The notes under the pieces were generated by a model. The model did no database searches and was not told where the DNA came from. It worked only from the letters and a program-made list of their open reading frames with translations. The position numbers and the translations under genes were made by a program. Below are positions 31,277 to 54,600 of a stretch of 64,000 nt of DNA, one piece after another; position 1 is the first letter of the stretch; every line of letters begins with the position of its first letter. The stretch comes from Flagellimonas allohymeniacidonis (GTDB lineage Bacteria; Bacteroidota; Bacteroidia; Flavobacteriales; Flavobacteriaceae), in assembly GCF_004296335.1 (NCBI RefSeq), contig NZ_SGIU01000002.1, positions 1,563,882-1,627,881 on the forward strand, given 5' to 3'.

Positions 31277-32578
31277 TCAACGATATTTAAATACTTCTTT
31301 GAACTTATAAAATAGTCTTTCTGCAACACTTAGATCTTCTGTTATAATTTCAGCATTTCCCAGAAGTTCCTGATCGAACACCAGTTTTTGGCCATAGGAC
31401 GTTTTTGTTCCATTGGGAAGGGAGATGTAGACGAAATATTGTTCGTCCGCATTAGGCGAAATGGATATGTTCTCTACAAAACCTACCAGCATACCAAATT
31501 GTTGATAGGGATAATTATCTAGCTTGATCAATACTTTCTGGCCTACTGTAACCTTGCCGGAGTTTTGGGATGCTATTGTGGATTTGCCTACCAGATTGGA
31601 TGTGTTCTTTGGAAGAACAGAAAAAACAACATCTCCTATGGTAACATTTTGATTCACCCCCCAATATTCTTGAAAACTTACGATGCCGTCTATGGAAGAA
31701 CTAAGAACAAAGGCATGTTCCCAATCGCGAATTGATTTCTGTAAGGCATTATACGATTGTGCTAGGTTTCGTAAAAAACGGGTACTTTCTTCCCTTTCGT
31801 TTAGTTGTGTACTTTTTAGGGCTTCATTGGCAGATGAAATGGCTCCCCTCATTTGAGAAATGGAAATGGCCATAGTGCTAATTTGTTTTTGCATTTGAAT
31901 GAACTCAAGCTCTTTTGATTCATATTCTTGTTGGGAAATCACGCCTCTTTCAAATAGTTGCTTGTGCCTTTCGAAGTCTACCTTAGCCAGTTTCTGCTCT
32001 CTTTCCAGCAGCTGTTTCTGTTTAATTTGGCTTATAAGTTGTGTTTTTATTTCCGCTAAGGATTGTGCATTGCTTTCCAGCTTATAAACATAGGGTTCGA
32101 GGTCTTTGAGCAAATAATATTCCACGTAGCTTTTTTCAAAATCGATGTATGCAATTTCTATGTCACCTAAATTCAGGTCGACAATGAGCTCTATGGGAAA
32201 TGAAAAATCGTTCAATGTAAAATCCAGTGTATCAATAATGCTCTTTAAAAAGTATACATCTTTATAGTTGGCCGTGTTCTTGAGGATGGCCAATCGTTGG
32301 TTGGGCTTCACCGACTGCCTATTCTCAATGAAAATGGTATCTATAGCCCCTGACTGTCGTGCTTTTAGTTGCTCGGCGGGTCTTTCGGTAGTGACAATGA
32401 TTTTTGCGGAAACAAAATCGGGATACTTTATTATAAATGATAGCACAAGAACAATAAAGGTGAAAAGAAAAATGAGTGTAATGCCCCAGCGTACGATCCA
32501 AGAAGGGGGATTGGTAAGTATTTCCTGTACTTCCTCTGATCTAATGTATAAATTGTCTTTGCTTTCTTTTTCAGGCAT
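31277..32578 (-). CDS. HlyD-family adaptor of a peptide ABC exporter
   Basis: 433 residues. One N-terminal transmembrane helix (ITLIFLFTFIVLVLSFII, about 33-50) precedes a barrel-sandwich domain (LKARQSGAIDTIFIENRQSV), a long coiled coil (about 150-280, LAKVDFERHKQLFERGVISQ), the second half of the sandwich (SSIDGIVSFQEYWGVNQNV) and a beta-barrel domain. This is the layout of HlyD adaptors that pair with bacteriocin-type ABC exporters. The start overlaps the ABC exporter stop by 8 bases. In this locus it would complete a type I system for the precursor encoded at 34885-35082; an outer-membrane TolC partner is not encoded here. Confidence 0.92.
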   Translation of the reverse strand: MPEKESKDNLYIRSEEVQEILTNPPSWIVRWGITLIFLFTFIVLVLSFIIKYPDFVSAKIIVTTERPAEQLKARQSGAIDTIFIENRQSVKPNQRLAILKNTANYKDVYFLKSIIDTLDFTLNDFSFPIELIVDLNLGDIEIAYIDFEKSYVEYYLLKDLEPYVYKLESNAQSLAEIKTQLISQIKQKQLLEREQKLAKVDFERHKQLFERGVISQQEYESKELEFIQMQKQISTMAISISQMRGAISSANEALKSTQLNEREESTRFLRNLAQSYNALQKSIRDWEHAFVLSSSIDGIVSFQEYWGVNQNVTIGDVVFSVLPKNTSNLVGKSTIASQNSGKVTVGQKVLIKLDNYPYQQFGMLVGFVENISISPNADEQYFVYISLPNGTKTSYGQKLVFDQELLGNAEIITEDLSVAERLFYKFKEVFKYR

Positions 32579-34805
32579 TTTCTTCTTTTTTTACACCCAA
32601 TTGTTCAAGAGCCAGTTGATTTTTTACCAAATCATAGTATACTCCTTGCTGATGTATTAGTTCTCGATGCGTCCCCAATTCCGTAATCTGGCCATCGTCC
32701 AATACTACAATTTGATCTGCATTCTGCACGGTACTGAGTCTATGTGCAATGACAATAGCGGTCTTGTTCTTGAAAAACCTGTTTAAATTTTTCATGATAA
32801 CCGATTCATTTTTGGCATCCAAAGCAGATGTAGCTTCATCAAAAAACAAAAAATCGGGGTTCTTGTACAGAGCTCGGGCGATAAATAGCCGTTGTTTTTG
32901 ACCCGTACTTATTCCGATGCCCTCGTTTCCGATTTGGGTATTAAGACCCAGCGGTAGTGACTGTACAAAATCATATATGTTGGCCAACTTCATGCAGTCA
33001 ATCAATCGCTCTTGGTCAATTACATCCGCACCGACGGCTATGTTGTAGGCTATGGTGTCATTGAACACATATCCCTCTTGCATTACCACCCCACAGCTTG
33101 ACCTCCATGCCTTGTGGGAGATATTGTTCAGGTTATGGTCCCCGTACATAATACTACCTTTGGCCGGCTCATAAAACTTCAGTAAAATTTTTAGCAATGT
33201 TGTTTTTCCACTTCCGCTTGCTCCGACAATGGCGGTGGTTTTGTTTGCAGGAATGGTCAGGGAAAGCCCTTTGATCACATTTTCGTCGTTACCTAGGTAT
33301 CGAAAAGAGATGTTCCGTAACCTAATATCTCGATTGGGCTGAAAGTTATAAATGAGTTGCTTTTCTTGCAGTTCTTCATCTTGTTTGTCATGGATTTCCC
33401 CCAAGCGTTCAAGACTTATTTTGGCATCTTGGGCGGCTCGGATGAAATCGACCAACTGGGTAATGGGGGTGTTCAATTGCCCTATGATGTATTGAATGGA
33501 AAGCATCATCCCCAGAGTTATGGAGCCCTCTATCACCAAGAAGGCTGAGGTAAATGTTATAAAAATGTTTTTCGCCTCGTTTATGAACGAGGAACCTACA
33601 CCTTGGGTTTGCTCCAGTACCAAGCTTTGCATATTTACCTTGAACAATCGGGCCTGAACGAACTCCCAGCTCCATCGTTTTTGCTTTTCGGCGTTGTTCA
33701 TTTTGATCTCCTGCATACCACTGATCAATTCAATAACCGTGGTTTGTTCCTGACTTAGTTGGGAAAATCGTTTGTGATCTAACTCTTTTCTTCGTTTCAG
33801 GAAAAACAAGATCCATCCGATATAAAAGAGACTGCCGATGGCAAAAATCAAAAATATTGAGAGGTTGTAGTAAATAAGAACAAAGCCAAAAACCAAAAGG
33901 TTGGTCATGGAAAATAGCGTGTTCAAGGTAGAGCCGGTAAGCAAGTTTTCAATACGGCTATGATCGTGTATGCGCTGCATAATATCACCGGTCATACGGG
34001 TATCAAAATATGCGATGGGCAGATTCATGAGCTTTATAAAAAAATCGGATACCAATGAAATATTGATGCGGGTACTAAGATGTAAAAGAATAAAGCTTCT
34101 AAAAACATCTACACTTGCACGGCCAATGAACAGCATAATCTGGGCCAGAAGAATTAGGTATATGAAATCGATATCCTGGTTTTGAATACCTACGTCAACA
34201 ATGCTTTGGGTTAAAAATGGGACAATTAGCTGAAGCACGCTTGCGACTAACAGCCCTATGCACAATTGGAGTAGGAGGTCTTTGTATTTGAACAAATACT
34301 GATAAAGAAATGCAAAGGATTGCTTATCGGTGGCTTCCCATTTGGCTTGGTTGAATTTTGGGGTAGGTTCCAAGAGTAAGGCGATACCCTCCTTGGTGGT
34401 CTCGTCTGCATTATTTCCAATCCAATGCTTCAGGAAATCATCTTTTTGATAGCTGATTAGTCCATATGCAGGGTCGGAGATATAGACAATATCCTTGTGA
34501 ATTTTATAGATGACAACAAAATGACTTTTGTTCCAATGGGCAATAAGGGGCATTGGAGCTTGTTTGAGCTTTTCGAAATTCGTTTTTAGGGCCAGTGATT
34601 TGAACCCAATGGATTCACTCGCTTCGCTTAATTTTAAAAGATTGCTTCCTTCCCGTGTAGTTTCTGATAAGGACCGTATCTCTTTTAGGGATATTAGCTT
34701 GCCGTAGTGCTTTACAACAATTCGTAAACAGGTTGGCCCGCAATCTTTTTCATCGGGTTGTTTGTAGAAGGGGAATTCTTTTTTCAAAAAGTATTTTGTT
34801 AGCAA
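32571..34805 (-). CDS. Peptidase C39-containing peptide ABC exporter (leader-cleaving)
   Basis: 744 residues with TTG as start codon (34805); no ATG lies upstream in frame near it. The N-terminal C39 protease domain has catalytic Cys22 (QPDEKDCGPTC), a histidine in NKSHFVVIY and an aspartate in ISDPAYG, so the triad appears intact. It should cut after double-glycine leaders. Six transmembrane helices follow (about 165-460), then the ATPase: Walker A VGASGSGKTTLL, signature variant ISTGQKQRLFIARAL instead of LSGGQ, Walker B FLFFDEATSALD, H-loop IVIAHRLSTV. It would export and process the precursor encoded just upstream on the same strand, 79 bases away. Confidence 0.95.
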   Translation of the reverse strand: MLTKYFLKKEFPFYKQPDEKDCGPTCLRIVVKHYGKLISLKEIRSLSETTREGSNLLKLSEASESIGFKSLALKTNFEKLKQAPMPLIAHWNKSHFVVIYKIHKDIVYISDPAYGLISYQKDDFLKHWIGNNADETTKEGIALLLEPTPKFNQAKWEATDKQSFAFLYQYLFKYKDLLLQLCIGLLVASVLQLIVPFLTQSIVDVGIQNQDIDFIYLILLAQIMLFIGRASVDVFRSFILLHLSTRINISLVSDFFIKLMNLPIAYFDTRMTGDIMQRIHDHSRIENLLTGSTLNTLFSMTNLLVFGFVLIYYNLSIFLIFAIGSLFYIGWILFFLKRRKELDHKRFSQLSQEQTTVIELISGMQEIKMNNAEKQKRWSWEFVQARLFKVNMQSLVLEQTQGVGSSFINEAKNIFITFTSAFLVIEGSITLGMMLSIQYIIGQLNTPITQLVDFIRAAQDAKISLERLGEIHDKQDEELQEKQLIYNFQPNRDIRLRNISFRYLGNDENVIKGLSLTIPANKTTAIVGASGSGKTTLLKILLKFYEPAKGSIMYGDHNLNNISHKAWRSSCGVVMQEGYVFNDTIAYNIAVGADVIDQERLIDCMKLANIYDFVQSLPLGLNTQIGNEGIGISTGQKQRLFIARALYKNPDFLFFDEATSALDAKNESVIMKNLNRFFKNKTAIVIAHRLSTVQNADQIVVLDDGQITELGTHRELIHQQGVYYDLVKNQLALEQLGVKKEENA

Positions 34806-34846
34806 TGTAGGACAAGGAGAGGGGAAATACTTTCTTTAATGAAGAA

Positions 34847-34876
34847 ACGGAGGTATCCAAGCAAGGATGCCTCCGT
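34847..34876 (-). terminator. Attenuator-like hairpin between peptide gene and exporter
   Basis: On the minus strand ACGGAGGCATCC (34876-34865) pairs with GGATACCTCCGT (34858-34847): a 12-bp stem with one G-U wobble and a 6-base loop. The tail is only TTCTTC, too weak for full termination. It lies in the 79-base gap between the precursor stop (34885) and the exporter start (34805). A partial terminator here would make more precursor mRNA than exporter mRNA, as in many bacteriocin operons; that effect is inferred. Confidence 0.65.
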
Positions 34877-34884
34877 AACAAATT

Positions 34885-35082
34885 TTAGTAACACCAGTCA
34901 ACAGTACTTGACTGAGCACCAGCGCAATACGCCGGAGCTGAAGAACAAGAAGGGAAGTTGTAGACTACCTGCCTCCATTGATTCCATGGCTCTGGGCCAT
35001 TTTTACACTGTAGGGTGGCACCACCTCTAACTTTTTTTTGCTCATTCTTTGACAACTGTGAGCCCAAATCTAACTTTTTCAT
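34885..35082 (-). CDS. Double-glycine leader peptide precursor (candidate bacteriocin/RiPP)
   Basis: 65 residues from the ATG at 35082. Residues 1-21 are a double-glycine leader: MKKLDLG, then LSKNEQKKVRGG, the leader pattern common in Bacteroidota peptides exported by C39 ABC transporters. The predicted core of 44 residues starts ATLQCKNG and ends STVDWCY. It has four cysteines, three tryptophans, three tyrosines and several prolines and serines. Even cysteine number suggests two disulfides, which suits the VKOR-thioredoxin gene nearby. A longer frame to 35124 is open but would break the leader pattern. It is flanked by the exporter genes and the DUF6734 gene on the same strand. The mature activity is unknown. 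Confidence 0.85.
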   Translation of the reverse strand: MKKLDLGSQLSKNEQKKVRGGATLQCKNGPEPWNQWRQVVYNFPSCSSAPAYCAGAQSSTVDWCY

Positions 35083-35197
35083 GGTACTTAAGAATTTAAG
35101 GGTTATACTTATAATTTCATACAATGTAGGATATTTCCTTCTTTTAATGAAAGATATTAAGTTAAAATCCTGAGTATTTGGGATTTTTTAGAATATT

Positions 35198-36817
35198 TTA
35201 TAAAACGGTTACGATGTTTTCAAAAGCCAGTCTTTTTAAAACATCAAATACCAAAAGTTTATACTGCTGATCTTCTATTGATATTTCCTCGTCAAAGTAA
35301 TCCAACAACAGTTTTAGAAGGCTTTCAATTTCAATGGGCCTTTTTATTAATGAGATAATAATGGCATCCAATTCATCGTAGTAAGATTCCTGTACGCTTA
35401 GTGTCAGTAAATCTATGCTTAAGGTCATGCAGTATTTCTTTCTAGGGACTTTCAATATTTGGACCAATGCTTTTTTTGGATCTTCTGAATTTAATAGCCC
35501 CCATGGCTTGCTTAGGTCAACTGCTTCCACTCCATCTTTTAGAACTACTTTTCGTTGAATCCATTTCGGTTCCATATAAAAGGTTGCCGTTTTTTGATAA
35601 TGAATAAGTTCACTCTCGTAGATTTCACCTTTTTGAATTTCAAGAAATAGGTTTTCCAAGCATTTTTGGTATTTAGTCTCCAGCAAGAAAACTTCTTTCA
35701 CGGGATCGGGCATGCCTTCCTGCTGAACAAATGCCTCTAAATTGCCTTCGGATAAATCAAGGTTGGGATAATAGTGTTTTGCAACCAGCAAAGTTCGACG
35801 GTAGAACTTTAGAGAGTTGAAAATGCTGTCTTGAAGTTTGAGAAATTGCCCCTTTTGCCCGAGGAAATAGGATTTGTTTAGTTCATGCCCGTTCTCAACG
35901 GTGGTAAAATCCAAATGATCATAAAACCGGTTCCTTAAGGGCACAGTCCCATTTTTGCATAGTTTCAATATCCGGTAGTAAGCATTGGGGAATTCCAATT
36001 GTAACCTACGTGCTAGATGATGCAAAACGTAAGGAATCTTTTTACAACCCCCCACCGGATGAATCATGGGCACTTCTGGGATATCTGCAAAACGCCAATA
36101 ATCTTGGTATAGCGGATGGTCCACAGGTTCCGAAACATAATATTCCGTTTTTATATTTTCTTGCCTGGCCAGATAGAACAATGAAATTTGCTCGACCAAC
36201 ATGTTTAGGTAACCCAAATTTACCTTGTCAAGATTATCAGTGTTCTCTTCGATTATTTGTTCCGCGGTTGAACAATATTTTTTGATAAAGGGTAAGTAGG
36301 TGCCCCCGAAGATTCCGGCATTACTTGCGAATGTATGTGGTTCATTAAGGACATTTTTTAAATGATGGGGAATGTACTTAAAATGCTCGCCCATATCTTT
36401 CAAAATCTCTTTGTTGAAGAATAGATCGACCTCCTGATTGGACGCTATGAGTTTCGCATTATTCAGACTTTCGGGCAAAGGATTCCATAAAAACACATCG
36501 CCATCAATATGTATAAAAGGTTCTTCTTGTAGACTATAAGTTTTGATTTTTGCCAAAGCAAAAAGCTTGGGATGAATTTTAGAGTTCCTATCAAAGACAA
36601 CATGCACCTTGGTGTAGGGTAGTCCTAGCATGTCAACCAAATTTTTTTTGCCCAGTTCATCAGTATATAATTCGAGTCTGTCATAATGCCTGCGAAGTAA
36701 TAGGGCACTTAACGCCCAGGACATCCAGTTGTATTCGGAAGATTCCCATCCCCCTTTCATATGTATGGGACTGGTATGATCCGCGTTGCCACTCCAAAAA
36801 GTTTGAACTACCTTCAT
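35198..36817 (-). CDS. DUF6734 family glycosyltransferase-like protein
   Basis: 539 residues from ATG 36817 (a TTG at 36823 is in frame). The N-terminal 290 residues look like a GT-A-type glycosyltransferase: VVQTFWSGN, SWALSALLLRRHYDRLELYTD, a switch-like LGLPYTKVHVVFD, and a DxD-like HIDGDVFLWNPL where DGD could bind a metal-nucleotide sugar. I recognise this as the DUF6734 type, seen near Bacteroidota peptide loci. The C-terminal 250 residues are helical and not recognised. No signal or membrane segment is visible, so it would act in the cytoplasm before export. Modification of the peptide by a sugar is a hypothesis. The stop is 115 bases before the precursor ATG. Confidence 0.78.
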   Translation of the reverse strand: MKVVQTFWSGNADHTSPIHMKGGWESSEYNWMSWALSALLLRRHYDRLELYTDELGKKNLVDMLGLPYTKVHVVFDRNSKIHPKLFALAKIKTYSLQEEPFIHIDGDVFLWNPLPESLNNAKLIASNQEVDLFFNKEILKDMGEHFKYIPHHLKNVLNEPHTFASNAGIFGGTYLPFIKKYCSTAEQIIEENTDNLDKVNLGYLNMLVEQISLFYLARQENIKTEYYVSEPVDHPLYQDYWRFADIPEVPMIHPVGGCKKIPYVLHHLARRLQLEFPNAYYRILKLCKNGTVPLRNRFYDHLDFTTVENGHELNKSYFLGQKGQFLKLQDSIFNSLKFYRRTLLVAKHYYPNLDLSEGNLEAFVQQEGMPDPVKEVFLLETKYQKCLENLFLEIQKGEIYESELIHYQKTATFYMEPKWIQRKVVLKDGVEAVDLSKPWGLLNSEDPKKALVQILKVPRKKYCMTLSIDLLTLSVQESYYDELDAIIISLIKRPIEIESLLKLLLDYFDEEISIEDQQYKLLVFDVLKRLAFENIVTVL

Positions 36818-36955
36818 TTTCAATAATGTAGTAAAATTCTTTACTTATATGAAGTAATATACTATTTTTATTAGTGGTAAATTTTCTTTTGAAAATCTTC
36901 ACATGCCTTTCAATTGGATTTTGAAAAGGTTTGCCAATGCCCCAACATATATCTG

Positions 36956-38581
36956 ATGGAATTTCATGAAATTGCTTATGAATTTTTGAAATCTGCGAAA
37001 GTTTCTGTTAGCAGAGATTATCTTAGGGAAAGGCTCGAATCCCACCCGTATTACCCTTCATTGAATGCACTAACGGACATTTTGGATGAGCTACAAATAG
37101 AGAGTTCTGCTTTGCAGATTGAGGAAAAACAAAGATGGCGCGAGTTACCATTTCCCATTCTGGCACATGTCGTCTCTGAAAATGGACAGCTTGATTTTGA
37201 GGTGATTAAAAATCAGCAGCACATTAAAACTGAAGGGGGGTTTTTGCAAAAGTGGACCGGAATCACCCTTCTTATCGGGAAACAAAGAAAAATCACGCAT
37301 GAGGAACATCAAAAACAATTTATAAAGGAAAAATTCGAAGGCGGTGTACTTTGGTCATGGGTTACGTTCCTGTTGCTTTTGGCCACCATGCCGCAACTTA
37401 TTTCCTTTAAACTGGGGTTCTTCATACATTATGTGCTTTCATTGACGGGATGCTTAGTGTCATGTAATATTGTCGCCTATAGCTTGGGTGTAAAAACCGA
37501 TATGTCGGACTTATTTTGCAAAGTAGAAACTTCTGGATGCAACGCGGTATTGACTTCTAAGTTGGGAAGACTGACGGGTGATATTGGACTGGCCGATATT
37601 GCAACGGTATTTTATGGGGGGATGGTGATTTATATGTCCTTCTCTACTGGCTTTGAACCAGATTCAAATTTACTTTTCTTAAACTTGGTCCAGGCTCTAC
37701 CATTTTTCTTTACTTTTTTATCTGTAGCCTATCAGGCTCACATGAAATCTTGGTGCAAACTCTGTTTGTTGCTCACCTTAATTATATGGTTGCAAAGCAT
37801 CAATTTGGTTTTTGGCTTGATGCAGTTGCCTTTTGATAATTTCGGCTTAATTGCGCCACCTTTCATGTACTACCTGACCCTTGTGCTAAGTATGGCCTTG
37901 GCGGGAAGTTGGTTTATTGTAAAACCTCTACTTCTCACGAAAAGGAGTAGTATGTTTCAAAAGATCAGAATCAGAAAGTGGAGACAAAATCCACATTGGT
38001 TCAATGCCTTACTGCCCCTACATAAACAGATTGATAGCGCGGTTTGGAACAAGGAGATTTTTTATGGTAATCCGAATGGGGTCTTGCAAATATTAATTAC
38101 CAGTAAACCCCTATGTGAGTATTGTGCTAAAGCACACTTTGAGCTTGAGCAAATCTTAAAGAAGCATCCAGATGATATAGGGGTAAGGGTACGTTTTACG
38201 CTACCTTCATTGAATACGGAAACCGAGGACTATAAGGCTGTGTTTCATATTTTGAACATGTATGAAGAGTTGGTTTGGAAAAAAGGGCAGAATCACACAA
38301 GCCCTTTGATGAAAGAAATCATTTCGGATTGGTATGAAACGCAAAACCTGTCAGATTGGGTTGACCGTTACCCAGTGCATGCAAAAAGCGAGGAGGAGGT
38401 ACATGCTTTAATTGGTCAATCGGTCCAGTGGGCCAACGCAATGGGGATAACACAAACCCCTGCGTTTTTTATCAATGGCTTTGAAATGCCCAACCCACAT
38501 ACCTTTAAGGACTTGTTTTTGTTTATTTCTGAATATATCGAAATTTTGAAAGGACAACGTTCACCCGTCTCGAGTCAATAA
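36956..38581 (+). CDS. VKOR-thioredoxin disulfide-forming membrane protein with C39-like N-terminus
   Basis: 541 residues from ATG 36956; an earlier TTG at 36914 is in frame but aligns less well. The N-terminal about 115 residues (KVSVSRDYLRERLESHPYYPS) resemble the C39-like domain found in such fusions and lack the catalytic cysteine. A vitamin-K-epoxide-reductase membrane domain follows, with quinone-site CxxC in SWCKLCLLL and a pair of loop cysteines (DLFCKVETSGCNAV). The C-terminal thioredoxin/DsbA-like domain has CEYC in SKPLCEYCAKAHFE and the cis-Pro loop TQTPAFFING. Together they form a complete disulfide-forming relay linked to quinone. Divergent from the DUF6734 gene; a role in cross-linking the four-cysteine peptide is inferred. 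Confidence 0.9.
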   Translation: MEFHEIAYEFLKSAKVSVSRDYLRERLESHPYYPSLNALTDILDELQIESSALQIEEKQRWRELPFPILAHVVSENGQLDFEVIKNQQHIKTEGGFLQKWTGITLLIGKQRKITHEEHQKQFIKEKFEGGVLWSWVTFLLLLATMPQLISFKLGFFIHYVLSLTGCLVSCNIVAYSLGVKTDMSDLFCKVETSGCNAVLTSKLGRLTGDIGLADIATVFYGGMVIYMSFSTGFEPDSNLLFLNLVQALPFFFTFLSVAYQAHMKSWCKLCLLLTLIIWLQSINLVFGLMQLPFDNFGLIAPPFMYYLTLVLSMALAGSWFIVKPLLLTKRSSMFQKIRIRKWRQNPHWFNALLPLHKQIDSAVWNKEIFYGNPNGVLQILITSKPLCEYCAKAHFELEQILKKHPDDIGVRVRFTLPSLNTETEDYKAVFHILNMYEELVWKKGQNHTSPLMKEIISDWYETQNLSDWVDRYPVHAKSEEEVHALIGQSVQWANAMGITQTPAFFINGFEMPNPHTFKDLFLFISEYIEILKGQRSPVSSQ

Positions 38582-39060: not shown

Positions 39061-41568
39061 TTAAAAAATTAATCGCACTGAGGCATTGGGTGTTATCCTT
39101 AGTGAACTTTGTAGAAATTGCTGCGCCTCTCCCAATGGATTGGCCCTATAAAAGCTGTTTATGGTGTTTTCACGGTTTAGTACGTTCCAAACAGCCACTC
39201 CTACTTGCACGCTTTTATTTTCTCCCCAACTAAATTCATATTTCCCTGAAACATCCAAGCGCAGATAGTCATCCAAGCGCTCGCCATTGGTGATGTCATA
39301 ATTGACCTCCCCGTCAACAATTTCGGCATTTGGGACTGGCCGCGTTTTTGGCTTTCCAGTTCGCCAGTTCAACCCTGCGGCGATGAGTAACTCACCTAAC
39401 GTGTAGTTCGCGCCCAAAGTCATGGCATGGGTAATGTCAAAGTTGCTGGGGAACCTGGTCTCTGGCAGTTGCTCAAAAAAATATTCGCTGTTAAGATAGG
39501 AATAGCTGAGCCATAAGCTGTTTTTTCCAAACTGTTTACGGATTAAAAGGTCAAGACCCGTAGCATCATAGGACCCTGAAGTTCTTGCAAACTCATATCG
39601 GTCTTGAAATCCTTGACTTTGGGTAGTAATGCCGTCAACGCTTTTGTAGAAAGTAACCGCATTAACCAGCCAGCCGTTTTTGTTGAAGCTTAGCCCAGCA
39701 GAGCCTTGTTTGCTCGTAATAACTGGGATGGATTCATCATTGGAAAGTTGCCACCTTCGTTTTTCGATACCCAAAAAGTCATTTTGAAAGTTAATTACCT
39801 GTGAAGTACTCTGGTGTTTGAATTCTCCTAGCACCTCTAGATTAAAACTCTCCCAAAAGCTATGGCTAAGACTAAGCCGAGGTTCCCATACCTGTTTTTT
39901 AAAATCATCCAGATAATTGAAGCGAATCCCTAAATTCAGTTGAGTGGCAGTGTTTTTGGAAGAAAGCCCAATTTCTGAAAAAATGGCATGAGTACGCAGT
40001 ATTTCCCCCTCCAATCGAACAAAAAGTGGGTCATCAACATCAGCAAGGTTGGTAACCTTGGTTTCTACAAAATGATAACCATTGGTCCAATTTATCCGGG
40101 GAGTCAACACGTTCAAGGTTTTCAGTCTAATGCCAGTTTCTGAAACTTTGTTTTCCTGAAGAAAGCGTTGGTCTTGAAGAATATTGACGTTTCTGGCCTT
40201 AAGTTTATAATCTGTATTGTAGATTTCGAGTTGTGTTCTAAATTTTTCCGTCCAGTCCCGTTGATGGTTGACCCCTCCGGCTATGGTTGTTTGGTCCAAA
40301 TTGCTTTCACGGGACACATCCGTTCCTGATAGTTGCGCGACCTCGTTAAAAGTCAATTCATTGGCAGTGTACATAAAGTTAATGCGGAAGTGGTCTTTTT
40401 CGGAAGGGTGAAAAAGCAGACGGAACGATGCATCGTAAAAGTCAAAGGCGATGTCCGAATTGGTCACTGCTGCGGTATTACTTTCTATCTCAGTGTCTTG
40501 GGTGATACGGTCAAAATAGTTTGAATAGGTAGGGGTCTCTACAAAATCACTCACAGACTTGCGAGTAGCCACTTGCAATGAGGCCTTTTTTCCCAATGGT
40601 GCATCAAGAGCACCATTGGCATCAATGAGATTAACCCCAATGCTGCCCTTAAAGCCTGTGTTGAGGTACTCATTGGTTTTCATAGCGATGGTACCGGAGA
40701 CGCCATCCGTCTCTGAGGCGCTGCTTCCATTTTTTCTAAGCGCAACTTTTTGGGTGATATGGGGATTGTACATGGAGATCAAACCAAAAAAATGACCAGA
40801 TTGGTACATTTTAATACCATCCCAGGTAATTAGATTTTGATCATGGCTACCACCTCTAATATTGATATTTGAAACGGTCTCATCAATACTTTGTATTCCT
40901 GGGAGAGCTTGCACGGATAACAAAACATCGTCCTCCACAAGCCCTGGAAGTATGTTGAACCGGTCAAAATCCAATTCTACCGAACCATTGTCAAGCTTGT
41001 CGATACCGCGAACCAAAAAATCGTAAACAGTGACTTCGGCAAGTTTTTCTTGATAGGGTAGAAGGTATATAGTGTTACACCCAGAAGTATTAAAGTAATT
41101 TACCTGCCTCTGCAAAGGCTTATAGCCCATAAGTCTGATTTGGATAATGTCTTCCGTCTTCAATCCATCGATCTCAAAATAACCTTCTTCATTGGCAATT
41201 GTTCCCTTGGAATCGACTTGTATCGTAACATACGGTAGCGTTTCACCAGAATCCTTATCTTTTAGATAACCGCAAAGAAGAATAGTTTTTTCCTTTATGG
41301 AAATAATGTTTTCAGAAACACTAACAAAAATTAGGTTGCTTTGTTCGCTTATGTAGTTGAGGGATTCTTCAAGGTTCATTGAGTTATTGGGAGCGACAAT
41401 GGCAACGCCATCGACCAACTTCGAGGCATAATTAAATTGTACCCCAAAACGTTCTTGTAACGTTACTAAAATAGTGGTCAGAGGTTGGTCTGTCTCTGTC
41501 TGGGCGGTTGTATTTATGCTATGAAGTGATACTACAATGAATATAAGAACAAGTAGTCTCTTAGTCAC
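39061..41568 (-). CDS. STN-containing TonB-dependent receptor (FecA-like transducer)
   Basis: 835 residues, GTG start overlapping the anti-sigma stop by 8 bases. A Sec signal peptide (about 1-22) leads to an STN domain (about 25-90, ILVTLQERFGVQFNYASKLV), a carboxypeptidase-regulatory-like domain (about 94-170), a plug (VQALPGIQSIDETVSNINIRG) and a 22-stranded beta barrel ending in Phe (VRLIF). An STN domain on a TonB receptor normally contacts a FecR-type anti-sigma factor, which is the next gene upstream. No SusD-type partner follows, so glycan import is less likely than metal, siderophore or peptide uptake. The ligand cannot be read from sequence. Confidence 0.92.
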   Translation of the reverse strand: MTKRLLVLIFIVVSLHSINTTAQTETDQPLTTILVTLQERFGVQFNYASKLVDGVAIVAPNNSMNLEESLNYISEQSNLIFVSVSENIISIKEKTILLCGYLKDKDSGETLPYVTIQVDSKGTIANEEGYFEIDGLKTEDIIQIRLMGYKPLQRQVNYFNTSGCNTIYLLPYQEKLAEVTVYDFLVRGIDKLDNGSVELDFDRFNILPGLVEDDVLLSVQALPGIQSIDETVSNINIRGGSHDQNLITWDGIKMYQSGHFFGLISMYNPHITQKVALRKNGSSASETDGVSGTIAMKTNEYLNTGFKGSIGVNLIDANGALDAPLGKKASLQVATRKSVSDFVETPTYSNYFDRITQDTEIESNTAAVTNSDIAFDFYDASFRLLFHPSEKDHFRINFMYTANELTFNEVAQLSGTDVSRESNLDQTTIAGGVNHQRDWTEKFRTQLEIYNTDYKLKARNVNILQDQRFLQENKVSETGIRLKTLNVLTPRINWTNGYHFVETKVTNLADVDDPLFVRLEGEILRTHAIFSEIGLSSKNTATQLNLGIRFNYLDDFKKQVWEPRLSLSHSFWESFNLEVLGEFKHQSTSQVINFQNDFLGIEKRRWQLSNDESIPVITSKQGSAGLSFNKNGWLVNAVTFYKSVDGITTQSQGFQDRYEFARTSGSYDATGLDLLIRKQFGKNSLWLSYSYLNSEYFFEQLPETRFPSNFDITHAMTLGANYTLGELLIAAGLNWRTGKPKTRPVPNAEIVDGEVNYDITNGERLDDYLRLDVSGKYEFSWGENKSVQVGVAVWNVLNRENTINSFYRANPLGEAQQFLQSSLRITPNASVRLIF

Positions 41569-42469
41569 GTTTACTAAAACGCACGGTGTTGGGCTTTAGT
41601 ATTTGATAGTTGAGGTCTAGAGGCTCACTGATGGCCGCAAGAGCGGTTTCCAGATCACTATGTACAAAACCTCCTGTAAAAAGTTGTTCCGCATCAACAT
41701 TTTCAAATGTAATGGTCACATTATACTGCCTTTCCAATTCGGCAAATACTTCCTTTAAAGGAGTACGTTGAAAATAGCTGGTATTCTTGGTCCATTGCGG
41801 TTCGTCAAAACTATTTTTACCAGTGATCATTTCACCATCAAATAATTTGAAGTTATCTCCAGCTTGGAGTATTTCGGTGTGTCGGTTGGTCACTACGCGA
41901 ACCGTACCTTCAAAACAAGCTACTTCAAAAAAAGTACCCCGTTGCTTAACGTTGAACTCGGTACCCAAAACACTTATAGTACCTTTTGAGGTGACCACGT
42001 CAAACTTAGCACCTTTGGCCACATCAAAAAAGGCCTCTCCTTCCAACTTAATCTCTCTTTTAGTACCCCACGCATTCTTATCATAACTTACTTCAGAGAG
42101 CGCATTGAGCACTACTTGCGAAGCATCCGGCAATTCGATAATGGTTTTTTGTGCCACCTCGGTCTGTACTTCGGTCACTGGATTGAAAAGGAAGTAATAG
42201 TAGAGCCCAAAAAATAACACGGCTACGCTGGCAATGCGAAGTATGGGCTTGATCCATTGAATTTTCCTCACTTTAGGGTCAGGCGAAATAACACGTTCCT
42301 TGAAGGTTTCAAAGTCATCCACAGTCGAAAAGTGGGATGCCTTAAACTGCGCAGCATCGTTAATGATACTTTTATAAAAAGGCGCGTCTTCCATAGCATC
42401 AAATGCCTTGCTTTCCTCTTTGGAAAGTTCGTCTAGAAGCCACTTTTGTATCAAGTTTTCCTGGTCCAT
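41561..42469 (-). CDS. FecR-type anti-sigma factor with DUF4974
   Basis: 302 residues. A cytoplasmic N-terminal helical domain (MDQENLIQKWLLDELSKEE) binds the sigma factor; one transmembrane helix lies at about 85-103 (RIASVAVLFFGLYYYFLF); the periplasmic FecR domain spans about 110-205 (TIIELPDASQVVLNALSEVS) and the C-terminal DUF4974 about 235-300 (TPLKEVFAELERQYNVTITF). DUF4974 contacts the STN domain of the receptor. Its ATG at 42469 is 16 bases from promoter site B, so this gene and the receptor have a promoter separate from that of the sigma gene. Confidence 0.92.
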   Translation of the reverse strand: MDQENLIQKWLLDELSKEESKAFDAMEDAPFYKSIINDAAQFKASHFSTVDDFETFKERVISPDPKVRKIQWIKPILRIASVAVLFFGLYYYFLFNPVTEVQTEVAQKTIIELPDASQVVLNALSEVSYDKNAWGTKREIKLEGEAFFDVAKGAKFDVVTSKGTISVLGTEFNVKQRGTFFEVACFEGTVRVVTNRHTEILQAGDNFKLFDGEMITGKNSFDEPQWTKNTSYFQRTPLKEVFAELERQYNVTITFENVDAEQLFTGGFVHSDLETALAAISEPLDLNYQILKPNTVRFSKRD

Positions 42470-42484
42470 AATTTAGGATCTTTG

Positions 42485-42517
42485 TCTATATAACAACCAA
42501 GGGCTAAATTTTCCTGA
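42485..42517 (-). promoter_or_regulatory. Shared ECF-type promoter motif, site B
   Basis: On the minus strand TCAGGA (42517-42512), 14 bases, GTTGTT (42497-42492), then ATATAGA. It adjoins the sigma-gene stop (42518-42520) and precedes the anti-sigma ATG by 16 bases, leaving a very short leader. Identical to site A over GTTGTTATATAGA. Confidence 0.65.
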
Positions 42518-43042
42518 TTATTTTATCTTAAAATTTTCCAGTTCTTTTTTCAATTGATCAAAAGCCGAGTAAATACGGTATTCCACGACCTTTCGGGTCA
42601 CGCCTAATAATTGTGCGATTTCCTCGTGTTTTTTGCCTTCAACCTTATTGAGCATGAAAGCGGTACGTTGCTCTTCCGATAGTTTTGAAAGAGCTTGTTG
42701 GTATTTTTTGTAATACTGTTCTTTTTCCAGGAGAAACTCCGGATTTTCATTGGTAAAACCCTTTGGAGATTCACTTTGGTACTTTAAAACTACTTTTTGA
42801 TGTTTTACCTCATTGAGCATTAAATTATTGGCCACCGTATACAAAAAGGATTTGGCCTTGTCCAAAGTAATTTTCTTGCAGTTTTCCCACAACTTCGCAA
42901 AAGCGTCATGAGCCTTGTCCCCGGGGTTTAGCCTATCGCCGTATTTATAGTAAAGAAAATCGTGAAGGTTTTGGGCATGTTTATTATAGAAATTGGCAAA
43001 TAGGGTTTCATCACAGATGTTTTGGTGGAGGCTCTTTTTCAA
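42518..43042 (-). CDS. ECF-type RNA polymerase sigma factor (FecI-like)
   Basis: 174 residues, with TTG at 43042 as start: a TGA lies directly upstream in frame (43045-43043) and no ATG is near, so the TTG start is forced. Sigma region 2 is at about 15-80 (HDFLYYKYGDRLNPGDKAHD, FLYTVANNLMLNEVKHQ), region 4 at about 118-168 (SEEQRTAFMLNKVEGKKHEE, IAQLLGVTRKVVEYRIYSAF). No N-terminal or C-terminal extension is present. It is followed by the anti-sigma gene and receptor in the same direction, the FecI-FecR-FecA order. Its own promoter has no copy of the shared motif; housekeeping expression is likely. Confidence 0.93.
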   Translation of the reverse strand: MKKSLHQNICDETLFANFYNKHAQNLHDFLYYKYGDRLNPGDKAHDAFAKLWENCKKITLDKAKSFLYTVANNLMLNEVKHQKVVLKYQSESPKGFTNENPEFLLEKEQYYKKYQQALSKLSEEQRTAFMLNKVEGKKHEEIAQLLGVTRKVVEYRIYSAFDQLKKELENFKIK

Positions 43043-49269: not shown

Positions 49270-51642
49270 CTAGCCCTTGGAGGCCAACCGAATGGAAACG
49301 CGCTGTTGAATGCGATTTCCTTCCCCGTCCACAGCAGTTAATTGGTAGTCGTCAGGTTTGACATCCAAAATCAGTTCGTGGAAACTTGTGGTCATGCCCA
49401 CATAGGCGTCGTCGAGATACCAGTATACTTCACTGCCACTTTGTTGATGCGCCAACTTAAATATTACTTGTGTTGAGCTGGTGCCCAAATCCTTTGGTAT
49501 CAAAATCTCTTCGTTTTTTTTTGGAAATATGAATTCCATCAAATGTGATTCCAAGTTGGAACAGTTGGTGAGAAAAGTGGGCGGTGTTTTGTAGCTGGGA
49601 TTTGAAGATGTGTAATAATACTCCATGACGGGAGGAAGAACGAACCAATTTTTGGCCACCATGTCCTCCAAAGGATAGCAATCTGAATTTACCTGATACG
49701 TTTCAGTGACATCCAAAAACACCTGATGGTGATAGGGACATGGACTGCTTTTGGTTCCATTGATGGGTTGTAGTTCTTTTTTGATTTCTCTGCAGAAAAT
49801 GGAGGCACGATGTCCGCTATCGGCACAGGTTTCAAGCTCGACCAAATCGTCATAGGGTTCAGGAAACCAATCACTTTTGGGCAATGCGTCGAGCACATCA
49901 AATAAAATTGGTGCCGCAGCTGTGATGCCGGTTAGGCCTGGCCTTCCTTCCCCATCAGCATTGCCTGCCCAAACGCCAATGGCATAGTCGGGTGTGACCC
50001 CGACGGCCCAAGCATCCTTAAAACCAAAACTAGTACCCGTTTTCCAGGCAATTTGCTTTGAAGAATCAAAAAACTCCCAATTTTCATCGCCTTCAGGTCG
50101 GTTTACCTCCTTCATTGCATTAAGCGTATGATAGATTGCTCCGGCATTTAATATGGAGGTTTCAAACTGTGATTCCCCGAAATCAATTTTTGCATTTGCC
50201 AAATAACTGGGCTCCGCAAATTCGTATGTTCGATAAGTGCTTGAATTCTTCACAAAATGATTCACTGTAGAAGCTGCGGAAGCATAGGTTTTCGTTACAT
50301 CCCACAATGAGCTTTCTGCTCCGCCCAAAATCAGGGACAATCCATAGTAATCCACTGGTTTGCTTAAGGAATTTAGATTCATTTTGTGCAGCTTATTGTA
50401 AAATTTTTGGAGCCCGTAGCTTCTGAGCAATCTAACTGCAGGAACGTTCAACGAACGGGATAAGGCCCTACTTGCGGGAACGGCCCCAGCGTGCTTTTTA
50501 TTGAAGTTTTTCGGATTATACCCATTGATAACGGTCGGAATATCAGTTACCAAAGTATTGGGCAATAACTGGCCCTCATGTAAGAGGGAGGCAAAAAGAA
50601 AGGGTTTTAGGGTACTGCCTGTACTCCGGTTTCTGGTGATAATATCCACATAATTTCCATGTTGTTTCCCTGAAGGGGAATTACCGACATAGCTCAGAAC
50701 TTCACGTGTTTTTACGTCCAACACCAATATGGCCAGATTATGGATTTCATTGCTCTTTAGTCTATTAAAATGTCTTTGTGCGATTCGATTGGCCTGTTGT
50801 TGTAGAAATCGATCCACTGAAGTCCGAATACGTTCTCCAGGGTGTTCCTTTTTGATTCGTTCCGTTAGGTGGGGAGCTATGTTGGGTAACGGTAGTGGCT
50901 TTTTAGGTAAAGGTTCCGCAATGGCAAGTTCATAGGTGGTTTGGTCGATTTGATTCTTGTCCCATAGTTTTTTGAGTAAACGATTCCGCTTTTTTAGTAG
51001 ACCCTCTTCGTTTCGACCAGGAAAAATCAGCGAGGGTGCATTAGGGAGCACGGCCAAGGTTGCGGATTGTCCCCAGCTCAATTCATGGGCTGGAACACCA
51101 AAATAGCGCCATGCAGCGGTCTCCAAACCCACTACGTTACCTCCGTAGGGAGTATGGGAAGCATGTAGCCTTAGAATTTCATCTTTCGAATACCGAAACT
51201 CCAGCCTGGTCGCCATGCATATTTCAATGAACTTTTCAAGGTAAGTACGCTTTTTGTTCTTTCTGCTCAACCGAATCACTTGCTGGGTGATCGTACTACC
51301 CCCTCTACGGGTGTTCTGGGTGAGATTATGTTTGATGGCATTAAAAATCGAAATAGGATTGAATCCGGGATGCTTGTAGAAATATTCATCTTCAAACAAC
51401 AATATACTTTGCTTAAAGCGCTTTGGAACAGAATCCATCTGTGGAAAACGCCATTGTCCATCTTCAGCAATCCTGGCCCCAATCAATATATTGTCAGAGC
51501 TGGTTACCACCGTTGAAGTGGGTTCCAGGAACAGTTGATTGGGTAAGCAGAACAACCAGAACAGCAAGGCAATCAAAGATGTGGAAAATTTGATCTTATG
51601 CCTTTGCCAAAAAACTTTAAAAGATGATAAACAAACTTTCAT
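49270..51642 (-). CDS. pbpC: Penicillin-binding protein 1C
   Basis: 790 residues. One N-terminal transmembrane segment (about 17-36) precedes the glycosyltransferase domain (EDEYFYKHPGFNPISIFNA, then RRGGSTITQQVIRLSRK) and a transpeptidase domain with motifs SxxK (STLKPF), SxN (SRSLN) and KTG (KTGTSFGFKDAWAVG). The C-terminal about 90 residues form the PBP1C-specific beta domain (VIFKLAHQQSGSEVYWYLDD). PBP1C builds or repairs peptidoglycan. The gene starts 4 bases after the alpha-2-macroglobulin stop; this pairing is found in many Gram-negative bacteria and is thought to form a periplasmic defence and repair unit. Confidence 0.93.
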   Translation of the reverse strand: MKVCLSSFKVFWQRHKIKFSTSLIALLFWLFCLPNQLFLEPTSTVVTSSDNILIGARIAEDGQWRFPQMDSVPKRFKQSILLFEDEYFYKHPGFNPISIFNAIKHNLTQNTRRGGSTITQQVIRLSRKNKKRTYLEKFIEICMATRLEFRYSKDEILRLHASHTPYGGNVVGLETAAWRYFGVPAHELSWGQSATLAVLPNAPSLIFPGRNEEGLLKKRNRLLKKLWDKNQIDQTTYELAIAEPLPKKPLPLPNIAPHLTERIKKEHPGERIRTSVDRFLQQQANRIAQRHFNRLKSNEIHNLAILVLDVKTREVLSYVGNSPSGKQHGNYVDIITRNRSTGSTLKPFLFASLLHEGQLLPNTLVTDIPTVINGYNPKNFNKKHAGAVPASRALSRSLNVPAVRLLRSYGLQKFYNKLHKMNLNSLSKPVDYYGLSLILGGAESSLWDVTKTYASAASTVNHFVKNSSTYRTYEFAEPSYLANAKIDFGESQFETSILNAGAIYHTLNAMKEVNRPEGDENWEFFDSSKQIAWKTGTSFGFKDAWAVGVTPDYAIGVWAGNADGEGRPGLTGITAAAPILFDVLDALPKSDWFPEPYDDLVELETCADSGHRASIFCREIKKELQPINGTKSSPCPYHHQVFLDVTETYQVNSDCYPLEDMVAKNWFVLPPVMEYYYTSSNPSYKTPPTFLTNCSNLESHLMEFIFPKKNEEILIPKDLGTSSTQVIFKLAHQQSGSEVYWYLDDAYVGMTTSFHELILDVKPDDYQLTAVDGEGNRIQQRVSIRLASKG

Positions 51643-51646
51643 CCCA

Positions 51647-54600
51647 TCATTGTGATACGTTTATCCATTTGCCCTTGTTCCTTGCATAGTAGGTGTTGTC
51701 ATACATCGCCTCCACCTGAGCCCCTGGTAGGTAATAATCTCCCAGAAAGGAAGCATTCAGCTTCACGGTAAAGGTTTTGGTTTTCTTTCTTCCTAAATCA
51801 AAATAGAAATGGGTCCTGTCATCACGCGTATCAATATAATCGACCTTGTTTGCATTGGGGTCACTTCCCCCAGCGAAGGTGGTATTGACAATTTCCCAAC
51901 CACTGGGTACAATCTGTGTCAATGCCAAATTATCCACATAGTCATCCGAGCTATTGAAAACGGTAATCTTTGCCTGTAACTCGGTGCCTTGACGCAATTC
52001 GGTAACATCTATGGCGTTGCCTATGGCATCAAGATATTGTACTGAAAGGGTAAGGTTCCGATTCTGCGCCAATTCCTGACCCACGGGCAGCTTCCCTGTT
52101 TGGGTAAGGGTGGCATAAATAACATTCCCCTGTTTGTTCTCTATGACAATGTTATTCTGAGTCGATGAAATCGAAAGGCCACGTTGGGCTATGGCCCGAT
52201 CTGTTTCCACGTTTCTTTCCTTTCCTCCATTTGTAAAGGTCAAATCGATAGACCTGCCGCCATTTTTCACCACCATTTTGGCCATGGCCAGCAAGGCAAA
52301 AGCCGTCTCTTGTGTGCTGTACCATCGCTGCGAGGACAGGTTTTTTGCTAGGGAAATGGCCAGATCCCTTTGTCGAGAGTCTCCCAATATGACCATGGTC
52401 TCCAAGGCCATGGCCCTATTCCTAAACACAGAGCCATAAGTGCGATAATCGTAGGCGTTGGGCTGGAAATTGATATTTGCTTTTTGGGCAAGTTCTTGGG
52501 CGACTTCCTTTTTACCTACCAATGCATAAGCAGCGGCCAATCGCCACTTTGCTTCATTACTGAGGTTTTTTGATTCACGTAAACGATTCATGGCAGCCAA
52601 TTCGGGTTGTTGTGCCAAGGCCAAAGTATACAAGCGGTAGGCTTGTGCGATATCGTTGTTGTATGAGGTACTTTGATTGCTCCATTGACGCGCCGTGTTT
52701 TTTTGATATCTCAACCAATTGTTTAAGAAAGTCAACGGCAATTGATAGCCCTTTTGTTTGGCCTCAATCATAAAATGACCTGCATAAGAGGTGCCCCAAT
52801 CGTTGGGATTGTCGTAACCGGGCCAATAACTTAATCCCCCATTTGGGTTTTGAAAGTCATTTAGTTTTTTAATCGCCGCTTTAATGTTTTTTTCAATCTC
52901 TTTTTTCTTTTCAAAAGTGATGTCCAAAACTTCGGATAAGTACAATTGCGGAAAGACTGCTGAGGTCGTTTGTTCCACACATCCATGAGGATAGCGGAGT
53001 AAATAGTCCATCCGTTTTGAAAAATCCATAGGAGGGAGCGTGGAAAATTCTATGAAAGCAGTATTGGTTCCCGAGGTGCCGAAGGTTTCAAATGAGATGC
53101 TTTGTGAGTCATTGGCATTGACGGTATAAAGCGCACTTTTGGTCGTTATGAGATTTGGATTTTCTACATCAATTTCTGTTTCGCTGGTTGCTCTTTCCCC
53201 ATTTCCAGAGGCATTCACTTTTATGGTTTGAAAGGCCTTAGTGGGATTCACTTTAAAATCGAAATTCACAATTTGTTCGCCTATCGAATTGAACGTGATA
53301 TTTTTAGTAGTGGGCCCAAGGGGTTCCAACGCTTTGCCTGCTGCAATAGTGACACTCACATTTTTTATCTTTTTATCCATGGCAAAAACTGTAACGGGAA
53401 TGGTTACTTTTTCTCCAGGAGATAGTTTTCGCGGAATGGAAGTCAATACCATTAAAGGTTTGCGCACCGGAGTGGTTTTTTCCGTGTTTCCATAGGCATT
53501 GTTCCCATTACCGGCAACGATCATGGCACGCACAGACCCTACGTAGTTGGGCATATTAATGGTATGGGTTGCCTTTTCCCCAGCTTTTAAGCTGAAAGGT
53601 CCCAAATAGGTGACCACAGGTTTAAAGCGTTGTGCTTTTCTATTTTTTGCCCCTTCACCAATTCCACCACCACCAATGGAATAAATGTTGTCGACACTTA
53701 CCGAAAAGGCACCCATGACATCATCAAAAATGTCAAATGTCTTTACTCCCAAAGCCTGTCTGGCATAAAAAGATGCGTGGATATCGGGCGTTTTAAAACG
53801 TGTCAAGTCAAGTAGTCCTTCATCGACCACGGCCAATGAATAGGTCATGGGTTTTTTATTGGCTTCGGACACAGTGACTTTATAGGACTGTTCCGGCTCT
53901 AGCACTCCGGGCATTTGAAGCTCAGGGTCCAAAAAAGTGGCGGGATTTTCAACCGATAGCGGAACAACGCCATACAGCCGAATGGGTAAATCATTCTTCA
54001 CCTGGCCATGAGGTTGTAGCAGCGAAATGTTGACGTACGCATTGGGCGCCATTTCAGCTGTAATGGGAATAATGGCCTTGGTCTCTTTGTTGGAAGTTTC
54101 AATCCATTGCTGGGATAGAACCTCAGACCCGTTTTCAATACTCAACAAGGCGCGACTGCCCAAATCGGATGGAAAGGTCACCACGGCCTGATTGCCAAGC
54201 GTGTATTTTTCTTTGTCTGCAGAGAAAATCAAAATCTTCGAACTTTCCATATCGTTGGAGGCAGGTCTCCTCCACCAATTTCTGTAGAAATATGCCGTTC
54301 TTCCTGTGGCGTGCCCCGAGGCTTCATCAATGACTCGTACTAAAAAACGACCCCCCTCGTCATCCGGAATGTTTACCTTAAAATTGGCCTTACCATCTGA
54401 TCCAGTGGTCAAGGTTAACTCTTTAAAAGGTCTGTGCACTGTGGCATTTTCATATCGAGAAAGATTGTCGTAGCCTCTGTTCCACCACCAGCGCCATTCA
54501 ATTTTGAAAATATTGACCTTTAATTTTCTGTTGCCTACGGGTTTGCCTTCCAGATTTACGGAAATTACATCAAAGGTAGTGTCCTCATCGGTCAAAAATG

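Follow-up and report, generated by a model that had tools for sequence, protein, structure and literature searches.

What is made by a group of genes in Flagellimonas allohymeniacidonis that brings together a small four-cysteine peptide, a peptidase-containing exporter, a disulfide-forming enzyme and a protein with a domain of unknown function, DUF6734? The group lies at positions 31277-38581 of the window, by which we mean the whole 64,000-nucleotide stretch of DNA that was analysed (GCF_004296335.1, contig NZ_SGIU01000002.1, 1,563,882-1,627,881); all window coordinates are relative to it. Genomes carry G-numbers, the source genome being G000 (contig C2), and fetched loci carry L-numbers. A first-pass annotation had listed here an HlyD adaptor, a C39-ABC exporter, a 65-residue precursor with a double-glycine (GG) leader, a DUF6734 gene and a divergent VKOR-thioredoxin fusion, and had proposed that they act together on an exported, cross-linked peptide. 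All of these open reading frames were found, and Pfam recognises the parts apart from the precursor and the VKOR segment. The window genes form one recurring cassette for an exported peptide with probable disulfide bonds, which bears out part of the first interpretation. The explanation that we favour, with somewhat better than even confidence, is that the cassette makes, oxidises, possibly sugar-modifies and exports a small peptide that is secreted and probably serves as a bacteriocin, following a glycocin-like logic assembled from Bacteroidota parts with a different glycosyltransferase family. The parts are:

31277..32578, minus strand: HlyD-family exporter adaptor, 433 amino acids (PF13437/HlyD_3, 49.5 bits; adjoins the exporter also in L025, L027, L028 and L046)
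32571..34805, minus strand: C39 peptidase-ABC exporter, 744 amino acids (PF03412, Peptidase_C39, 120.5 bits; PF00664, ABC_membrane; PF00005, ABC_tran)
34885..35082, minus strand: precursor peptide, 65 amino acids, four Cys (scan candidate P0001; nine-member family alignment)
35020-35082, minus strand: precursor leader, 21 amino acids, ending in GG
34888-35019, minus strand: precursor core, 44 amino acids, four Cys
35198..36817, minus strand: DUF6734 protein, 539 amino acids from a conserved ATG (PF20508, 307.9 bits; start from homologs)
35954..36817, minus strand: DUF6734 N-terminal domain, carrying D107xD109 and H255xxGxxK261 and predicted to be a GT-A glycosyltransferase
35201..35953, minus strand: DUF6734 C-terminal domain, possibly leader-binding (hhalign, alignment; weak structure matches to PqqD, TbiB1 and unrelated winged helices)
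36956..38581, plus strand: divergent C39-like/VKOR/thioredoxin fusion, 541 amino acids (Thioredoxin_4, 41.2 bits; C39 match below cutoff; VKOR of homologs; Cys pattern)

The starts of the DUF6734 gene (ATG at 36817) and of the fusion (ATG at 36956) were corrected by comparison with homologs. The exporter sequence holds the Cys, His and Asp of what we take to be the C39 motif, in line with the intact triad first annotated.

A recurring cassette with its own precursor family

The complete five-part cassette is present in the source genome and in four more: G011 (L025), G040 (L027), G036 (L028) and G085 (L046), the last of which belongs to a different genus. Each complete cassette has one to three related precursors, and the gene content outside the cassette varies between the five loci. 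Other arrangements occur as well. L005 keeps a DUF6734 gene and a precursor, but its nearby fusion/exporter cluster is represented only by a 53-amino-acid fragment, and in L053 an exporter and HlyD gene lie about 5 kb from a DUF6734 gene interrupted by stops. A Paludibacteraceae metagenome-assembled genome (L006) encodes two DUF6734 proteins, fusion, precursor, exporter and HlyD consecutively.

The nine precursors from six loci are invariant at M1, L6-G7, L10, E14-Q15-K16-K17, G20-G21, C26, C46, Y52-C53 and C64, and carry S or T at position 47. Because leader, GG and four Cys are shared in this way, the locus is not a chance assembly. A search of 71 genus genomes with this family gave matches in five at E<=0.01, strong ones (E<=2e-26) in G000, G011, G036 and G040 and a fifth in G006 at 0.004; second, weak matches in G036 and G040 are different GG-leader peptides. 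As 11 of the 71 genomes fall outside the DUF6734 search, 60 were searched for both, and among these the strong precursor matches are exactly the four genomes with a long DUF6734 protein (533-557 amino acids). In 299 family genomes, matches at E<=1e-6 occur only in G000 and G085. The precursor matches no Pfam family and was unmatched in a plasmid search. The NCBI model NF047798 ('bacteriocin-like protein' leader) picks up eight of the nine family members at E<=1 (best 0.059), with the window precursor scoring 11.3 bits, below the cutoff of 23.5, and NF038167 (CTB family bacteriocin) picks up a single member at E 0.012.

DUF6734 genes are associated with GG-leader peptides

PF20508 is present in 12 of 60 genus, 12 of 299 family and 14 of 345 phylum genomes, each count including G000. 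A strict scan, which asked for GG, hydrophobic residues at -4 and -12 and two or more core Cys within 2 kb of the DUF6734 gene, found a precursor in 18 of 40 loci. It found none in 390 kb of control sequence, made up of 20 regions of these genomes at hand-picked, not random, positions, and none in the reversed loci. The 40 loci are not independent, since three genomes supply two each and several come from one genus. The nearest precursor in the 18 loci lies 66-1582 bp from the DUF6734 gene (accuracy 3 bp). Reading by eye 19 of the 22 failures (L083, L084 and L087 were covered by the scan) added eight loci, L024, L029, L044, L047, L075, L076, L077 and L078, which gives 26 of 40. These additions are softer, because a clean GG is missing from L024 and L078, the motif reads GA in L047 and GAAGG in L029, L077 has a single Cys, and the control regions were read by the scan only.

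The 22 strict failures count against the explanation that we favour. L050 shows no precursor by eye, yet encodes proteins that cluster with LanB and with LanC. The remaining 13 comprise four cut contigs or broken genes (L020, L074, L080, L081), six members of a divergent subfamily (L054, L083-L087, 72-87 bits) and L051, L052 and L082, where an intact core-family DUF6734 gene has no precursor by scan or eye. Taken together, the association between DUF6734 and GG-leader precursors is real, though not universal among DUF6734 loci.

Three contexts can be told apart. Type A is the window-type cassette. Type B (eight loci) combines a short DUF6734 protein, a neighbour of 207-209 amino acids, a fusion and tiny YC..VNP..CC precursors. 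Type C is a class I lanthipeptide context, confirmed by Pfam in L019 (LANC_like, and Lant_dehydr divided into N and C parts) and assigned by protein clustering only in L021, L022, L044, L050 and L079. The first-pass annotation had stressed that lanthionine enzymes are absent. This holds for the window, where none of the 15 proteins scanned with Pfam is LanB or LanC and the cassette thus is not a class I lanthipeptide cluster, but not for DUF6734 elsewhere: L019 has both LanB and LanC, and a neighbour there resembles the C-terminal half of the window DUF6734 protein. What is new is that DUF6734 is connected with ribosomal peptide clusters of several kinds; the peptide-export-disulfide part is less new.

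Two further observations concern the family at large. The divergent subfamily has tandem pairs in L083-L085 and shared neighbour clusters of its own, with no GG precursor by scan. DUF6734-like proteins also occur on 11 IMG/VR viral contigs (L108-L118), with 25-41% identity in the best segment and again no GG precursor by scan.

DUF6734 looks like a glycosyltransferase

The predicted model of DUF6734 residues 1-290 has a GT-A fold, with glycogenin and alpha-galactosyltransferases tied as best structural matches. Nearly all of the 50 structure matches listed are glycosyltransferases, led by these two groups, with which the structure alignment gives about 12% identity. D107 and D109 are kept in 34 of 34 core rows and in 43 of 44 rows overall. 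Like glycogenin and alpha-1,3-galactosyltransferase, which we assign to GT8 and GT6, DUF6734 combines the predicted GT-A fold with DxD and HxxGxxK, presumably a GT8-type metal site. It differs from both in lacking a significant sequence match and in its additional C-terminal domain.

Several results count against this assignment. The mean pLDDT (predicted local distance difference test) of the model is 65, and Pfam at E<=1 matches the protein to no glycosyltransferase family. A sequence search of solved structures gave nothing significant (best UvsY, E 0.057), and hhalign against two E. coli GT8 proteins (WaaJ/WaaO) reached a probability of 1.5%. Membership in GT8 by sequence was rejected, given that PF01501 has no match in the window protein at E<=1 and the WaaJ/WaaO alignment is non-significant; the best such alignment pairs IHPVGGCKK with IHYTGATKP. 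Across 59 genomes PF01501 gave one weak match, and none in G000 at E<=0.001. On the predicted fold, DUF6734 looks like a glycosyltransferase, as first annotated, from which we infer glycosylation of the peptide. That the enzyme is instead a nucleotidyltransferase, or binds a nucleotide-sugar to act on the peptide in another way, we consider very improbable: nucleotidyltransferases do appear among the Foldseek matches (CMP-KDO synthetase, for example, at rank 39 with E 1.4e-3), but the 50 structure matches described above are nearly all glycosyltransferases, and DxD with HxxGxxK would suit a GT8-type metal site.

The long, window-type DUF6734 proteins have about 250 extra residues at the C-terminus, and a gene for 207-249 amino acids adjoins DUF6734 in type B loci and in four type C loci. 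By hhalign the fused domain links to the type C neighbours (probability 71.6%), and L079 links to the type B neighbour (44.7%) and to the type A domain (37.9%). The similarity between type A domain and type B neighbour runs via L079, since the direct comparison failed (0.7%, or 4.1% after adding one row). L079 against the type C neighbours gave 0.1%, the L050 and L077 neighbours stayed at or below 4.1% against every profile, many other pairs gave nothing, and the HlyD control reached at most 0.9%. Pfam recognises no domain common to the C-terminal half and the separately encoded neighbours, and the sequence search of solved structures returned for this half a single non-significant match (3dee, E 1.3). 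Its last 65 residues are predicted, at low overall confidence, as two strands and three helices. Structure matches are all weak and include PqqD (3g2b, 5sxy) and TbiB1 with leader (5v1v, 5v1u), level with unrelated winged helices. These likenesses hint that the C-terminal domain may bind the leader.

Considering the three contexts together, DUF6734 might be a novel Bacteroidota family of peptide glycosyltransferases that is shared between peptide classes. A glycogenin-like GT-A domain, working with a leader-binding domain that is either fused to it or encoded next door, would decorate disulfide peptides (types A and B) and lanthipeptides (type C). We hold this wider reading as tentative, at slightly less than an even chance. 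Candidate acceptors conserved in the window precursor type would be Tyr52, Ser/Thr47 and Cys. All type A precursors share the Tyr and it occurs in type B as well, yet by eye Tyr is also common in precursors without an adjacent DUF6734 gene, and we do not count it as evidence for a sugar site.

The fusion as a disulfide module

The first-pass annotation had overlooked a C39-like domain at the start of the fusion. Its match is just below the cutoff (20.9 versus 22) and begins at profile position 26, past the catalytic Cys, so that the fusion is probably no peptidase. The VKOR segment has no Pfam match in the window fusion (E<=1) or in that of L004 (Flagellimonas aquimarina ECD12; E<=0.01), but the homologous fusions L006 and L045 exceed the Pfam VKOR cutoff. 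An alignment of seven fusions keeps C202, G208-C209, C281-x-x-C284 and C401-x-x-C404.

Among 70 genus genomes we counted 26 fusion genes or pieces in 19 genomes. For 16 of the 26 the strict scan placed a Cys-containing GG precursor in the flanking 1.5 kb on either side, compared with none of 80 control pieces. Four type A fusions have precursors further out than these flanks, and in L142 and L151, which correspond to L024 and L029, a precursor was recognised by eye, which brings the total to 22 of 26, with controls read by scan only. Eight of the 26 fusions stand next to a DUF6734 gene and one (G713) is outside the DUF6734 search. In DUF6734-searched genomes 17 of 25 fusions have no DUF6734 beside them, which counts against the explanation that we favour: the disulfide module can do without DUF6734. 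What these loci have in common is disulfide formation, with DUF6734 as a special addition. The first annotation had named as the outcome to speak against it that DUF6734 and VKOR genes mostly occur away from GG-leader genes. On strict counts the picture is mixed, as the fusions pass the half-way mark and the DUF6734 loci (18/40) do not, with both sets well separated from their controls (0/80 and 0/20).

The genus apparently holds a large uncharacterised repertoire of this kind: many dissimilar GG-leader Cys-rich precursors lie beside C39-like/VKOR/thioredoxin fusions in L135-L156. L128:1483-3137 (G036) has a further such precursor beside a VKOR-thioredoxin fusion, with no DUF6734 found there.

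Comparison with known systems

The first-pass annotation had placed the locus outside any standard RiPP class. Its layout is instead that published for bacteroidetocins, and that of glycocins once the glycosyltransferase is added, as far as the available portions of the sources describe them (PMC6671954, PMC8620827). The same limit applies to the comparisons that follow. Bacteroidetocins (class IIf) are likewise from Bacteroidota and combine a GG leader, four Cys, a thiol oxidoreductase and a peptidase-ABC transporter; the likeness is one of layout (PMC6671954). Their mature peptide has 42 and their leader 15 amino acids, compared with 44 and 21 in the window, and their regions are expected to include an ancillary protein that carries transmembrane stretches from end to end (PMC6671954). 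The available part of that paper names no glycosyltransferase for bacteroidetocins, whereas the window has DUF6734.

In the glycocins sublancin 168, glycocin F, enterocin F4-9 and pallidocin, a leader precursor, C39-ABC exporter, thiol-disulfide oxidoreductase and glycosyltransferase are clustered as in the window, and glycosyltransferase, exporter and oxidoreductases act on the leader peptide (PMC8620827, PMC12457901). Glycocins have two disulfides (PMC8620827, PMC12457901), and two are proposed for the four Cys of the window peptide. The glycocin class further calls for a sugar on Ser, Thr or Cys and for a nested arrangement of the disulfides. The window holds a C39-ABC exporter with a GG-type leader and a disulfide oxidoreductase. 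The glycosyltransferase is of another type: glycocin enzymes are of the SunS/GccA/EnfC type (EnfC belongs to the group 2 family; available text of the same sources), whereas Pfam at E<=1 gives DUF6734 only. We therefore call the cassette glycocin-like in the way it would operate and do not class it as a glycocin. It also departs from glycocins in the VKOR-thioredoxin fusion with C39-like domain, the HlyD adaptor, the Bacteroidota host and a sugar that is putative. The glycocins named here come from Gram-positive bacteria. Mining of Bacteroidales has reported peptide S-glycosyltransferase domains and glycosyltransferases in areas of ribosomally synthesised and post-translationally modified peptides (RiPPs), so that glycosylated RiPPs were already suspected in the phylum (PMC10352776, available part). 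The locus is not described in the titles or abstract openings among the literature matches listed, and the search returned no paper containing 'DUF6734'.

A working scheme and its rivals

Next to what was computed here, namely cassette conservation, the precursor family, the co-occurrence and the predicted GT-A fold with its conserved DxD, we propose a scheme in which the sugar, its site, leader binding and antibacterial activity are our postulates. The precursor would be synthesised with its 21-amino-acid GG leader. In the cytoplasm, the C-terminal domain of DUF6734 would hold the leader while the GT-A domain adds a sugar from a nucleotide-sugar to the core. The C39-ABC/HlyD complex, judging by family, would cleave after GG and export the 44-amino-acid core. 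Outside, the fusion would form two disulfides from the four invariant Cys, again by family, perhaps docking through its C39-like domain. The calculated monoisotopic mass of the oxidised core is 4908.125 Da, which would rise to 5070.178 Da with one hexose or 5111.205 Da with one HexNAc.

It is also conceivable, though we regard it as unlikely, that the locus encodes a bacteroidetocin-like disulfide bacteriocin whose peptide stays sugar-free, with DUF6734 acting elsewhere, for example by modifying the cell surface for self-protection. The GG leader and the four Cys of the precursor, the thiol oxidoreductase and the peptidase-ABC transporter all fit the bacteroidetocin layout (PMC6671954, available part), GG-leader Cys peptides stand with VKOR fusions without an adjacent DUF6734 gene in L152 and L138, and a role in immunity would account equally well for the co-occurrence with precursors. 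However, DUF6734 is found within a class I lanthipeptide cluster, too, and next to very different precursors. This would be easier to understand for an enzyme that modifies peptides than for an immunity factor dedicated to one toxin. Its distance to the nearest precursor in the 18 strict-scan loci, 66-1582 bp, also counts against this rival, although an immunity role keeps some probability. Less probable still is that the peptide serves as a signal or scaffold and not as an antibacterial, which would be compatible with the scheme we favour. No immunity gene was recognised for the cassette, a point that also burdens the bacteriocin proposal, as does the fact that no product or activity of the cassette is known, and several GG-leader Cys peptides adjoin VKOR fusions in the genus. 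The patchy distribution and the several diverged precursors in some loci are, on the other hand, more reminiscent of antagonistic peptides. The glycocin-like cassette stays our preferred explanation.

Surroundings of the cassette

Next to the cassette, at 39061-43042 on the minus strand, lie a TonB receptor-like gene (Plug domain, Pfam) and sigma factor-like and FecR-like genes (labelled by eye). This right-flank block is kept, with no cassette adjoining, in all four genus genomes fetched; in the same four the left-flank genes are not beside it, and the comparison therefore offers no clean empty site. A presumed Bacteroidota-type promoter pattern has 4 matches in the window versus 4.4 expected and none between the divergent genes. 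Further away (49270-57217, minus strand), a transglycosylase-transpeptidase penicillin-binding protein with BiPBP_C adjoins a bacterial alpha-2-macroglobulin gene (1856 amino acids), a familiar gene pairing.

Significance

Glycosylated ribosomal peptides are few. If the proposal is true, a glycosyltransferase family common to disulfide peptides and lanthipeptides would exist in Bacteroidota, PF20508 together with a GG leader would become a handle for genome mining, and DUF6734 would gain a concrete function. The cassette further offers a testable case of a disulfide enzyme with a C39-like domain that may recognise the leader of the exporter too.
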